Positions 7,213 to 33,667 of a stretch of DNA of 37,034 nucleotides are shown piece by piece. Made by a program: the position numbers and the translations under genes. Origin of the DNA: Promethearchaeota archaeon (GTDB taxonomy: Archaea; Asgardarchaeota; Lokiarchaeia; Sigyniarchaeales; SOKP01). The stretch's first letter is position 1, and every line of letters starts with the position of its first letter. The stretch lies in NCBI GenBank assembly GCA_014730165.1, contig WJIS01000034.1, positions 1 through 37,034 of the forward strand, written 5' to 3'. Below the pieces are notes generated by a model. The model was not told the DNA's origin and did not search any database. It saw only the letters and a list, made by a program, of their open reading frames with translations.

Positions 7213-8283
7213 ATGAATAAAAAAGTGGATGATAAGCTAACTCCTTTAAGGGTAATATCTAATTTTAATGATGGTAAATTAACATTAGAAAATGCTAATG
7301 AACTCCTGATTTTGATATTCAAAAATTCTAAAATCTATAATGAAAGATTAGAGACTATAGAATATTTAGGTTCTATTATCACCAAGAATAATAGAAATTT
7401 TAAGTTTTTAGAAAATATCTTGATTTCTGATACTGATCCTTTTATAAGAAAGGAAGTTGCAAGTGTTATAGCTGAGAATTTCCCTGATCAAGCAGCTCAT
7501 TCATTTAGGTGGGAATTGAAAAATGAAAAATCTCCGATAGTAATTAAAAGTATTCTTGATATTATTATAAATGATAAGAAAAATCCGCTTCATAAATTGC
7601 AAGCTGAAGCAAATCGATGGCTTTCTGAATTTGGAAACTTATTAAATATCACTCCAAAAGAAGCTTATTTTATTTTAGATATTGAATCGATATTTTCTCT
7701 TTATGATAAATCTAATACTCTCAATAATGATACTTTCAAATTTTATAAAGAACTCGAGAAATTAAATACCAAAACAAAGTGGTTCTCGATAAAAAATCGC
7801 CATATTCAAAGTTTAAAGTTCAATATTTATAAATGGACCTTTTTAAGAAATTCTTTAGCATTAATGAAATCCTTCAATAAATATAGAGATCTAGATCTTC
7901 TCTTGAGCCTATTACGTCAGATGGATTTAGATGTTAAAAAATTCAATAGAATTCCCTTAAGTATAGGAAATCTAAAACATCTAGAGTTTTTAGATTTGAG
8001 TGAAAATAATTTAAAAGTATTACCGCCTTCAATTCAGCACCTCAATCCATTAAAGCAATTAGATTTAAGTTATAATAACATAACTATATTTCCACATACA
8101 TTATTAAGTCTTGATAATTTGGAAATCCTAGATCTAAGATTCAATAATCTGTCCGAAGTTCCCACAGAAATAGATCAATTGATAAATTTACAGAAATTGT
8201 ATTTGAAAGGAAATAGCATAAGAAATATTTCAAATAATCTAAGGAAATTTCTTGAGAGTTTAAAAATTGACATAGAAATATGA
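7213..8283 (+). CDS. HEAT-like N-terminal region plus SHOC2/Ras-suppressor-type LRR protein
   Basis: C-terminal repeats IPLSIGNLKHLEFLDLSENNLKVLPPSIQHLNPLKQLDLSYNNITIFPHTLLSLDNLEILDLRFNNLSEVPTEI; N-terminal helical stretch (ILISDTDPFIRKEVASVIAENFPD...SPIVIKSILDII) resembles HEAT repeats. Confidence 0.75.
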   Translation: MNKKVDDKLTPLRVISNFNDGKLTLENANELLILIFKNSKIYNERLETIEYLGSIITKNNRNFKFLENILISDTDPFIRKEVASVIAENFPDQAAHSFRWELKNEKSPIVIKSILDIIINDKKNPLHKLQAEANRWLSEFGNLLNITPKEAYFILDIESIFSLYDKSNTLNNDTFKFYKELEKLNTKTKWFSIKNRHIQSLKFNIYKWTFLRNSLALMKSFNKYRDLDLLLSLLRQMDLDVKKFNRIPLSIGNLKHLEFLDLSENNLKVLPPSIQHLNPLKQLDLSYNNITIFPHTLLSLDNLEILDLRFNNLSEVPTEIDQLINLQKLYLKGNSIRNISNNLRKFLESLKIDIEI

Positions 8284-12650: not shown

Positions 12651-13571
12651 TTACTTCTTTTTCTTTTTTTCGTATAGATCATTGAAGTCTGGGATAACTA
12701 TGTTTGGATAATCCTTATTTAAAAGATATTTTTTAACATTTTCAAGATTTCTTTCATAATTGTATTCATAGAATATCATCGGAACTGCAAATAACCCAGG
12801 AATAAGAAACGGTAGAAAAATAAGAATAATCGGTATAAGCATGGCAGGATCCCAGCCTGAATCACCCAAGACATCTACTATGGTAGCACCTATAATATTT
12901 AAATAAGCTAAAATGGTTGAAAATCCGATAAAATATTCCAGGAAATCTCTGAAAATTCTATTAACTCCTTCTATATCTGGATTTTTCCTTTTATTTTTGA
13001 ATTTACGATAAGCGACCACCCCACTATCTTCTAATATCCACAGAGTAAAAAAAATAATCATCACAAAAGGGACTAAAAAATATGTGCTTAAAAATATTGC
13101 TTCAGACCTGAAAAGTGCAGTTTCACTAAAATTAAACCTAAAAAAACTACCTAATCCAGCTTGTATAAGATATACACCTATTGTAAAAGAAAAAAAACTG
13201 ACTTTTAGAGATCTTAATAAGATCTTACCAGCACTAATATCACCTAAGTGTGAATAGATTCCATATTTCGGTTTTTTTCTGAACAAATAGAAGAGCTTAT
13301 GAAATTTAATATAAAACATTGTAGAATATGGGCTTATGGCGATAATTAAGAAGTATACAACTATCGGAAGAATATAAAGTAATATGATATCTGTCCATAG
13401 AGGCCCTGGAAGTAGAACTACAAAATGAGTAACAAACACTTTAGGTATATCTAATCCAAAAAACATTCCAGAAGGTAATCTTGCCATTAGAAAAATTGAT
13501 CCATATAACAAAAGCGTTAGGATTAAACATATGATAATTGGAACAAATTTTTTTTGTAATATCTTCGACAT
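12651..13571 (-). CDS. Multi-pass membrane protein of unknown function
   Basis: 306-aa ORF with about six hydrophobic segments and a Lys-rich C-terminus (NDLYEKKKKK). Confidence 0.75.
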   Translation of the reverse strand: MSKILQKKFVPIIICLILTLLLYGSIFLMARLPSGMFFGLDIPKVFVTHFVVLLPGPLWTDIILLYILPIVVYFLIIAISPYSTMFYIKFHKLFYLFRKKPKYGIYSHLGDISAGKILLRSLKVSFFSFTIGVYLIQAGLGSFFRFNFSETALFRSEAIFLSTYFLVPFVMIIFFTLWILEDSGVVAYRKFKNKRKNPDIEGVNRIFRDFLEYFIGFSTILAYLNIIGATIVDVLGDSGWDPAMLIPIILIFLPFLIPGLFAVPMIFYEYNYERNLENVKKYLLNKDYPNIVIPDFNDLYEKKKKK

Positions 13572-13811: not shown

Positions 13812-14384
13812 ATGGTAGATGATGTTATATTTTATACGGTTCTAATAATTTTGATTGCATTTGTTGCTTTCTTTTTAGCATTCATGGTATGGTTAAAGAG
13901 TAAATTCCCCCATCCATTAATGATGAAAGTATTATCTACATTGCATTCAGCATTATTTGGATACGAAAAAGCGTTAGTAGAGCTAATTGGTTCGCGCGGA
14001 TATAAATCTCATGTCTTTCCAGAAATAGTAAATACAATAAAGAATATCAAAGACGAAGATCCAAGGATTTTAGAACTATTTAGTGCTACAACAGCTAAAG
14101 AAGCAATGGAAAAGTGGTTAGAAGTATTAAAAGTAACAGGAATAACACAAAATGGACAAATTAAAGAAATTAATGAGAATGAGTTTGAGATTATTATTCC
14201 AGATTGCTCATTACATGATCCAATACACGAAATCATAGGAGACCAGAAAGGAATTTGTCCTATGGCTTTGATATTAGCTTCTGCTAGTGCAGTTGGACAA
14301 GAAAATGGTAAAGTCCCTGAAATGAATTATAGTGAATTTCATCCAACTGGTACAACTACTAAACTAAAATTTGTAAACGAATAA
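13812..14384 (+). CDS. Membrane-anchored small protein with C-terminal Bet3/V4R-fold-like domain
   Basis: N-terminal TM (VIFYTVLIILIAFVAFFLAFMVWL); C-terminal EFEIIIPDCSLHDPIHEIIGDQKGICPMALILASASAVGQENGKVPEMNYSEFHPTGTTTKLKFVNE follows the layout of Bet3/V4R C-terminal halves. Family call is by eye only. Confidence 0.5.
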   Translation: MVDDVIFYTVLIILIAFVAFFLAFMVWLKSKFPHPLMMKVLSTLHSALFGYEKALVELIGSRGYKSHVFPEIVNTIKNIKDEDPRILELFSATTAKEAMEKWLEVLKVTGITQNGQIKEINENEFEIIIPDCSLHDPIHEIIGDQKGICPMALILASASAVGQENGKVPEMNYSEFHPTGTTTKLKFVNE

Positions 14385-14407
14385 TACAATAAGAGATGTA
14401 GTAAAAA

Positions 14408-15151
14408 ATGATAAAATCTTTCTTGATTATATCAAAAGATGGTGTGCCTCTATTTACTCATACCGAAGAGGATGCTAAAGTAGATAGTTCATTAATTGGT
14501 TGTTTCCTAAGTGCTATCCAAAGTTTCGCTAAAGAAGTTAGCAACAGCTGCATAGATAAGATAGAAATGCAACCAAATACGTTCTATTACGCAAGTAAAG
14601 GCCCAATATTTTCAATTGCTGTCGCTGAACAAACAGACGAAATTGATGGCAGAGTGTATAAGATCATAGCAGAAAGAATCAGTAGGAGTTTTTTAAATAA
14701 ATACCCAGAAGATCAAATAGAACAAAATAAAGGAATCCTCGATTTTTTTAAAGATTTTACAAATGAATATGGAACAATAATTGATGAAATTGACCAATTG
14801 CAAACCCAAGGGAATAAAGATTTTATCTTAGATTATTTCACAAGAGCAGCTAATGATGAGAATATTATTGGGATGATAGTTTTTGACCTTCAAAATGATG
14901 AAATAATCGCAAGTGATATACCTGAGAACATTCCCGTGAGTAGTTTTGAATCATTTAGTTCAATGTTGTTTAATTTTGTAGATCGCCTGGGGAATGAATT
15001 AAAGGCTGGAAAGATTAATGAAATCTTAATGCGAGCAGAAAAGCACTGGATAGGGGGTTTTCGGAAGGGAAACTTAGCTGTTTTCACCATTTTTTCCCAT
15101 GATTTTTTTGGAAATATTATACCTGATTTTATTACATCAACAATTAACTAA
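14408..15151 (+). CDS. Longin-like domain protein, probably two longin/roadblock-like modules
   Basis: MIKSFLIISKDGVPLFTHTEEDAKVDSSLIGCFLSAIQSFAKEVSNSCIDKIEMQPNTFYYASKGPIFSIAVAEQTDEIDGRVYKIIAERISRSFLNKYP has longin topology; second half repeats a similar pattern (IIGMIVFDLQNDEIIASDIPE...FRKGNLAVFTIFSHDFFGNIIPDFI). Starts 23 bp after the preceding gene. Confidence 0.65.
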   Translation: MIKSFLIISKDGVPLFTHTEEDAKVDSSLIGCFLSAIQSFAKEVSNSCIDKIEMQPNTFYYASKGPIFSIAVAEQTDEIDGRVYKIIAERISRSFLNKYPEDQIEQNKGILDFFKDFTNEYGTIIDEIDQLQTQGNKDFILDYFTRAANDENIIGMIVFDLQNDEIIASDIPENIPVSSFESFSSMLFNFVDRLGNELKAGKINEILMRAEKHWIGGFRKGNLAVFTIFSHDFFGNIIPDFITSTIN

Positions 15152-32623: not shown

Positions 32624-33667
32624 TTATAAATGAATCAGACAATATTCAATAAATTTACGTGGATTATTAGCAAATCCGCTTGAATCAAGCCCACCTAATT
32701 CCCACAATAGTCCCTCATCTATGGGATTTCCTTTTAACCATAAAGAGCTTAAGTTTGTTAATGATTCCAATCCTTTAATTTTCTTAATCATATTATTATT
32801 CAAATCTAAAGTTTCTAGATTTGTTAAAGATTCAAGGCCTGTGATATATTGAATCTTGTTGCTGGAGAGATACAAATTTTTAAGATTTTTCAATGAATAA
32901 AGCCCGCGTATTTGTAATATAGCATTCTCCTTTAAATTGAGTGTTTCTAAATTATTACAATTATCTAACCCTTCGATTGATGATAATTGATTCCCATTTA
33001 ACCATAGAGTCTCTAGATCTTCCATATTCTCTAAATTTTTAACACCTTCTATTAAATTATTATTTAGATAAAGTTCTTGGAGATTTCTAAGATTATTTAA
33101 TCCAGAAACTTGTTGTATCTGGTTTCCTGCCAAGTTTAATATTTCAAGTTTGTTTAAGTTTTCTAATCCCTTAATTTCACTGATAAGGTTACCTGCTAGC
33201 CATAGAACTTCAAGATTTTTAAGACTTTTAATACCTTCAATCTCTGAAATTTGATTCCAAGACAGATCTAACTTTACCAATTTAGTAAGATTTTCTAATC
33301 CTTCGATTTTTGTTATTAAGTTTCCTCTAAGATATAACTCCTTCAAATTATTCAGATTATCTAATCCCTTTATTTCCGATATTTGATTGCTAATGAGATG
33401 AAGCGTTTCTAAATGTTCCAAATTTTCTAATCCTTGAATCTCAGTAATTATATTGCTTCCTAAGTTAAGTATAACAAGTTCTGTAAGGTTTTCTAATCCG
33501 GTAATATCCTTGATTTCATTAGAACTTAACTCTAAATGAGTGAGATTCTTTATCTCATTTAATCCGATAATATTTGAAATCTGCTTGATACCAAGAATAC
33601 CTAAATCTAAAAAACCATCTTCAACGAGAAATTTCTCATCATTAAATTCCACACTCATACTATCCAC
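32624..33667 (-). CDS. SDS22-type leucine-rich-repeat protein
   Basis: Thirteen LRR units of the 22-residue SDS22 class (N.I..I.GLENL..L..L.L..). Confidence 0.93.
   Translation of the reverse strand: MDSMSVEFNDEKFLVEDGFLDLGILGIKQISNIIGLNEIKNLTHLELSSNEIKDITGLENLTELVILNLGSNIITEIQGLENLEHLETLHLISNQISEIKGLDNLNNLKELYLRGNLITKIEGLENLTKLVKLDLSWNQISEIEGIKSLKNLEVLWLAGNLISEIKGLENLNKLEILNLAGNQIQQVSGLNNLRNLQELYLNNNLIEGVKNLENMEDLETLWLNGNQLSSIEGLDNCNNLETLNLKENAILQIRGLYSLKNLKNLYLSSNKIQYITGLESLTNLETLDLNNNMIKKIKGLESLTNLSSLWLKGNPIDEGLLWELGGLDSSGFANNPRKFIEYCLIHL
32729..33520 (-). repeat. 12 consecutive indel-free 22-aa (66-bp) LRR units, residues 50-313
   Basis: Manual phasing of the protein from NEIKDITGLENLTELVILNLGS to NMIKKIKGLESLTNLSSLWLKG: every unit is exactly 22 residues. 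Confidence 0.88.

Follow-up and report, generated by a model that had tools for sequence, protein, structure and literature searches.

The locus described here raises the question whether two adjacent genes of an Asgard archaeon encode a minimal, membrane-held relative of the eukaryotic TRAPP complex, as a preliminary description of the sequence had proposed. The window (the whole stretch of DNA that was analysed, 37,034 nucleotides) is part of a 4.65-Mb Asgard genome, whose closest named relatives are MAGs of Lokiarchaeota. The first gene, termed T, and the second one, termed LR for the longin and roadblock domains of its product, lie on the same strand with the short spacer that had been reported for them (Table 1). 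In the remaining loci of the same kind (type A, see below) with a clear start the spacer is 14-38 bp, and the two genes are likely transcribed together. Our results suggest that the T-LR module is a pre-eukaryotic GTPase regulator acting at the membrane.

Table 1. Positions of the T and LR genes and of their parts in the window
Feature	Position	Strand	Description and basis
T gene	13812..14384	+	190 aa; membrane-anchored, soluble domain with predicted TRAPP/H-NOX superfold
T N-terminal TM helix, residues 4-31	13821..13904	+	hydropathy; AF2 helix 4-31
T soluble domain, residues 35-189	13914..14378	+	predicted helices, then b-b-a-a-b-b-b (AF2, Foldseek)
Near-invariant Cys132 ... Cys149-Pro150 of T	14205..14261	+	candidate metal or structural site; alignments
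T-LR spacer, 23 bp	14385..14407	none	ORF positions
LR gene	14408..15151	+	247 aa; longin-roadblock protein (Pfam, AF2, Foldseek)
LR longin domain, residues 1-132	14408..14803	+	AF2 order b-b-a-b-b-b-a-a; Fuz_longin_1
LR roadblock domain, residues 137-235	14816..15112	+	AF2 order a-b-b-a-b-b-b; profile match to 9jue_D, E 0.004; 7yh1_A, rmsd 1.8 A over 95 columns (Foldseek)

T has the N-terminal transmembrane helix ascribed to it earlier, a single strong segment in the hydropathy profile (residues 10-28, KD 3.1). The flanks of the helix are acidic upstream and rich in Lys and Arg downstream, and of the six orthologues in the alignment most have a similar charge pattern; according to the positive-inside rule, the soluble domain would thus face the cytoplasm. 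The AF2 model of T (pLDDT 76.7, pTM 0.68), which like that of LR was built on six sequences (the window protein and five orthologues), consists of the TM helix, a helical half, a b-b-a-a unit and the last strands, its weak part being the first helices (residues 31-60, pLDDT 52-60). When this model was compared with the PDB by Foldseek, 43 of the top 50 matches were either TRAPP-subunit chains (16; Bet3, TRAPPC3, TPC6 and TRAPPII chains) or H-NOX/sGC chains (27), two groups with one superfold in common, and 2cfh_C reached the highest TM-score (0.46/0.54). T likely belongs to the TRAPP/H-NOX superfold, a placement of moderate confidence that falls short of proof since even the top matches have E-values of no better than about 1e-3, the model is poor in the first helices and H-NOX ranks level with Bet3 among the matches. 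The Thorarchaeal TRAPPC3 was also found to be related to H-NOX and sGC (Tran et al. 2024, PMC10933270). In their position, Cys132 and Cys149 of T would correspond to two TRAPP/V4R cysteines.

By sequence, T could be assigned to no family: neither Pfam nor NCBIfam gave an appreciable match, and the PDB gave none, either with single sequences or with profiles. The TRAPP model PF04051, which finds proteins in 40 of 148 Asgard genomes, matched neither T and 27 of its relatives nor anything else in the same genome; the V4R model (PF02830) missed T as well, and only two cysteines of the V4R C-terminal pattern have counterparts in T. Profile comparisons were carried out with full-length proteins and with C-terminal halves, with column shuffles. 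Against the Thorarchaeal TRAPPC3, hhalign returned a probability of about 1%, which is the noise level, and the T profile gave no signal against Asgard PF04051 TRAPP proteins or against several sets of V4R proteins, a Lokiarchaeal one among them. The start of the C-terminal half of T is collinear with TRAPP, Cys on Cys, an agreement equalled by 4 of 100 column shuffles, and by eye the Cys spacing agrees with that of the Thorarchaeal TRAPPC3. Direct sequence evidence for T as a TRAPP or V4R protein was given up, as Pfam, NCBIfam, phmmer, PDB profiles and hhalign all stayed at or near noise. The earlier assignment of T as Bet3/V4R-like is therefore supported for the predicted superfold, but not for the sequence families: T is not a demonstrated TRAPP subunit, though it may work like one.

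The longin-like start of LR was borne out by Pfam (Fuz_longin_1, residues 3-75, E 3.5e-4) and by the AF2 model (pLDDT 72.5, pTM 0.67). A second module, taken for a further longin-like one in the preliminary description, is indeed present, but the AF2 fold, Foldseek and the Robl_LC7 model (PF03259, E 6.3e-4) identify it as a roadblock domain. Both Pfam matches are below cut-off for the window protein; Robl_LC7 matches 9 of 11 members of the LR family at E <= 1 (best 7.9e-7), and two relatives among the type-B partners exceed the cut-off of PF19036, which the window LR alone does not. Fold and sequence models together place LR in the longin superfamily and in the Roadblock/LC7 family. The window LR has two modules and so lacks the three longin domains per subunit that mark the tri-longin Rab GEFs (HerMon), in which LD1 contacts the Rab. 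Nor is it a partner of sybindin type: it has no sybindin match in Pfam, and the second of its domains is a roadblock. The top Foldseek matches of LR are MON1, CCZ1, Fuzzy, Inturned, BLOC-3 chains and Lokiarchaeal roadblocks (7yh1, 9jue), with low whole-chain TM-scores (0.25-0.41, query-normalised). A specific affinity to MON1 was considered and dropped: in a control, Fuz_longin_1 was the usual best Pfam match of other single Asgard longins too, so no MON1-specific kinship is read from it. Of the single Asgard longins tested (loci L012-L028), most match this model, and the SNARE-type Longin model usually fits them less well.

Orthologous T-LR pairs were detected in six other genomes, five of the Lokiarchaeal order and one (G066) from another family of the phylum, with 46-69% identity in the five measured. 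The two genes are adjacent every time while most other neighbours change, and the arrangement in the window is thus not due to chance. With the T profile, relatives of T were found in 60 of 228 Asgard genomes. Among the 50 T loci with usable flank, 47 have a longin/roadblock gene within 300 bp, against 3 of 168 background genes taken at least 1.5 kb away; the three loci lacking such a neighbour all belong to type B (19/22; type A 7/7, type C 13/13, type D 6/6, two remote loci 2/2). The gene pair is thus strongly conserved in Asgard archaea. Neither T nor LR was placed outside the folds named for them in the preliminary description, and the pair is syntenic in relatives.

The T loci fall into four types. 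In type A, to which the window pair belongs, a T with one TM helix is followed by LR downstream. Type-B T proteins (about 350-440 aa) have a polytopic N-terminal part (4TM-fused), and their partner is a longin-roadblock-roadblock-like protein of 340-390 aa with three successive modules, the second and third of which are roadblock-like. Type C consists of a soluble T (160-170 aa) with LR. Type-D T proteins, about 245 aa long, occur in Thorarchaeota and other families; the N-terminal half of their domain is duplicated, and beside their genes lie a longin gene and a 4TM gene that is not fused to T. Outside of these types stand two remote T-like loci, both in one genome (G053).

Some further features of the membrane parts were recorded. 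The membrane part of type B contains conserved His-Lys and His residues (L112, L164-L175), and the type-B T genes are often found, by eye, near glutaredoxin-like, ferredoxin-thioredoxin-reductase-like and CCG-like genes, which suggests a redox link. In type-D loci (L144:4263-5482, L145, L148, L149, L162, L163) the separate 4TM gene that follows resembles an unfused type-B membrane part; homology with the fused 4TM domain was dropped as profile comparison gave no support for it, the likeness being visual only (hhalign 0.2% for the Thorarchaeal gene).

T and its partner co-diversify as four shared clades. The distances among T proteins correlate with those among the partner longins (Mantel r 0.89, 44 loci, 0 of 2000 permutations), a correlation of which shared species history is expected to explain a part. 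The same four clades (1-TM, 4TM-fused, soluble and Thorarchaeal) appear in the maximum-likelihood trees of both proteins, and since the trees carry long-branch warnings, the branching order of the clades was not interpreted. The clades separate paralogous pairs within one genome: that of the window contains a type-A pair (in the window) and a type-B pair (on contig C176).

A link to small GTPases, as was predicted earlier, could be observed in relatives and not in the window. In six Lokiarchaeal genomes (G023, G208, G211, G146, G152, G149) a type-C operon, on a single strand and with short gaps, has the order LR - Ras-family GTPase - roadblock - T. The GTPase (PF00071, E 2.7e-37 in one genome) has the P-loop GDGGVGKTS and the switch I DYIST(I/V)GAQF, which we take to resemble the Rab1 sequence, and has no C-terminal cysteine. 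Relatives of this GTPase (68-70% identity) stand at the corresponding place beside the type-B module in G033 and G199, and homologues are encoded on contigs C339 and C161 of the window's own genome. The two G053 loci contain T-like, roadblock (PF03259, 8.5e-9) and Ras/Arf-type GTPase genes, the roadblock and GTPase genes following a T-like gene; in the GTPase frame no P-loop was seen, so that the frame may be incomplete. Altogether 16 of the 50 T loci have a GTPase gene at a distance of 2.6 kb or less; as small GTPases account for up to 2% of the genes in Asgard archaea (PMC10307638), chance is expected to explain some of these neighbours, but not the ordered operon. Neither the window nor the surroundings of any type-A pair yielded a GTPase gene, and the GTPase of type A would have to come from elsewhere in the genome. 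According to Tran et al. (PMC10933270), the GTPase genes of MK-D1 do not as a rule form operons with those for roadblock, longin or TRAPPC3 proteins; the type-C operon is an exception to this rule in related genomes.

V4R proteins of a conserved Lokiarchaeal cluster are also tied to GTPases. The cluster, observed in six genomes (L197:3189-5314, on contig C339 of the window's own genome, and L198-L202), contains genes for a Rab-like GTPase, a thioredoxin-like protein of ~100 aa and a V4R-type protein, with a second Rab-like GTPase nearby; another V4R-like and GTPase neighbourhood may exist (L203).

On the most likely reading, whose chances we consider evenly balanced, T and LR would together make up a two-gene module that regulates small GTPases at the membrane. 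The N-terminal helix of T would sit in the cell membrane with the TRAPP-like domain in the cytoplasm, LR would dimerise via its longin and roadblock domains and dock on T in a physical complex, and the platform so held could bind a Rab-type GTPase and control its nucleotide state or location, in the role of GEF, GAP or scaffold. A ligand of the TRAPP-like domain, such as a lipid or some other hydrophobic molecule, may in addition tune the control of the GTPase. Longin/roadblock dimers are established GTPase platforms (TRAPP, MglB, Ragulator, tri-longin GEFs; PMC10933270, PMC12383261). T adds a fixed membrane anchor that LR lacks, and such a platform is the economical model. The adjacency, the co-diversification, the GTPases of the operons and the predicted folds suggest this function; against it stand the type-A pairs without GTPase neighbour, the moderate model of T, which is H-NOX-like as much as Bet3-like, the failure of sequence comparison to link T with TRAPP/V4R, the three T loci that have no longin neighbour and the ligand binding proposed for Asgard TRAPP/V4R proteins by Tran et al. 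More tentatively, and with rather less than even confidence, we propose that Asgard-wide, membrane-anchored complexes of a TRAPP-superfold and a longin-roadblock protein, old enough for a split into four co-inherited types, are dedicated regulators of Rab1-like GTPases at archaeal membranes, the operon GTPase being retained in some Lokiarchaeota.

T could instead be mainly a membrane ligand or redox sensor with a V4R/H-NOX-like pocket, LR being a scaffold for relaying the signal and GTPase control being secondary or absent. Both folds matched by T bind ligands, its Cys pair is conserved, the 4TM-fused form has conserved membrane His and often stands near redox-type genes (by eye), and ligand binding was favoured for Asgard TRAPP/V4R proteins by Tran et al. 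(PMC10933270). However, a longin/roadblock protein, a GTPase-platform fold, is the constant partner, type C is without redox genes and has the Rab-like GTPase inside the operon in six genomes, and inspection of T by eye revealed no motif for an H-NOX heme ligand; we regard the sensor as rather unlikely. It is more doubtful that T-LR is a true minimal TRAPP, a direct homologue or ancestor of the Bet3-longin core. The structural matches to Bet3, TPC6 and TRAPPC3, the longin partner and the presumably Rab1-like switch I of the operon GTPase agree with it, but neither PF04051 nor the profile of the Thorarchaeal TRAPPC3 reaches T, LR carries a roadblock in place of a sybindin match, and the genuine PF04051 TRAPPC3-like genes of other Asgard genomes, bona fide ones in Thorarchaeota, have a different partner. 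Vesicle tethering and an ancestral role, as put forward in the preliminary description, are inferences.

The longin partner might also represent the ancestor type of the tri-longin Rab GEFs (MON1/CCZ1/FUZ/INTU/HPS), with T as a membrane recruiter like their accessory subunits. The precursor of that family was predicted to be a single homodimer with three longin repeats (PMC7703760); the three modules of the type-B partner and the matches of LR to MON1, FUZ and BLOC-3 chains also speak for this origin. But modules 2 and 3 of type B are roadblock-like, whole-chain similarity of LR is low and Fuz_longin_1 is matched by Asgard longins in general, hence this origin seems the least probable of all.

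The module of T and LR can be compared with several known systems. The Thorarchaeal TRAPPC3-like protein (7yh2, 7yh3; PMC10933270), another Asgard member of the TRAPP/V4R/H-NOX superfold, shares with T a domain of about 155 aa, a conserved Cys region and a gene adjoining that of a longin/roadblock-looking protein, but it is PF04051-positive and soluble, has a four-Cys Zn site and no detectable sequence homology to T, and its partner, unlike LR, has a winged-helix C-terminus. In the Heimdallarchaeal fusion MBD3190748.1 (PMC10933270; compared by description) a longin is likewise coupled to a TRAPP fold, but in one protein, and neither roadblock nor TM anchor is described. The eukaryotic TRAPP core (Bet3/Trs31/Trs33 with Bet5/Trs23) also joins TRAPP-fold and longin subunits and acts on a Rab at the membrane, as is proposed for T-LR; it differs in its heteromeric sybindin-type longins and in Bet3 having no TM helix, and T fails the TRAPP sequence model. 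MON1-CCZ1, Fuzzy-Inturned and BLOC-3 share tandem longin-type modules with LR and are its best structural matches, whereas LR has two modules (window) or the longin-roadblock-roadblock order (type B), and the eukaryotic complexes have no TRAPP-fold partner. MglA/MglB operons, too, encode a small GTPase with a roadblock regulator, but contain no longin and no TRAPP-fold subunit.

In the literature searched, with most subscription papers and preprints lying outside its scope, no description was found of this family of gene pairs, of the forms anchored in the membrane or of the operon of four genes; one study, that of Tran et al. 2024 (PMC10933270), was directly relevant and is the closest prior work. 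Each component belongs to a kind already known, and the arrangement, the anchoring and the Asgard-wide co-inheritance are new. Dozens of Rab-like GTPases and of longin/roadblock proteins are encoded in Asgard genomes, but regulators could not be paired with their GTPases, as operons common to both were reported to be generally absent (PMC10933270). Matched sets are provided by the T-LR family, among them an operon of four genes that includes the GTPase; they are directly open to expression and assay. A membrane-anchored arrangement of TRAPP fold and longin outside eukaryotes bears on the origin of Rab regulation at membranes.

Further observations concern other gene neighbourhoods. In Thorarchaeota, PF04051 TRAPPC3-like genes closely related to the crystallised 7yh2/7yh3 (L105:5033-10032, L106, L065-L084) adjoin a gene for a protein of ~300-350 aa whose N-terminus looks like longin/roadblock and whose C-terminus is winged-helix-like; one of these TRAPPC3-like genes has a V4R-like gene on its opposite flank, and a distance of about 3 kb separates two such sets. 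The Thorarchaeal assignment of one family (f8) was made by a 1e-78 match to PDB 7yh3. At L111:5935-7667 (G088) a longin gene comes after two TRAPP/V4R-like ORFs, which adds one more lineage with TRAPP and longin genes side by side. In the window, a polytopic membrane protein of 306 aa with no family match is encoded divergently from T (12651-13571, - strand), and its gene stays beside the T-LR pair in genome G001. Two leucine-rich-repeat proteins are encoded at 7213-8283 and 32624-33667, the second one consisting nearly entirely of LRR_4 repeats.
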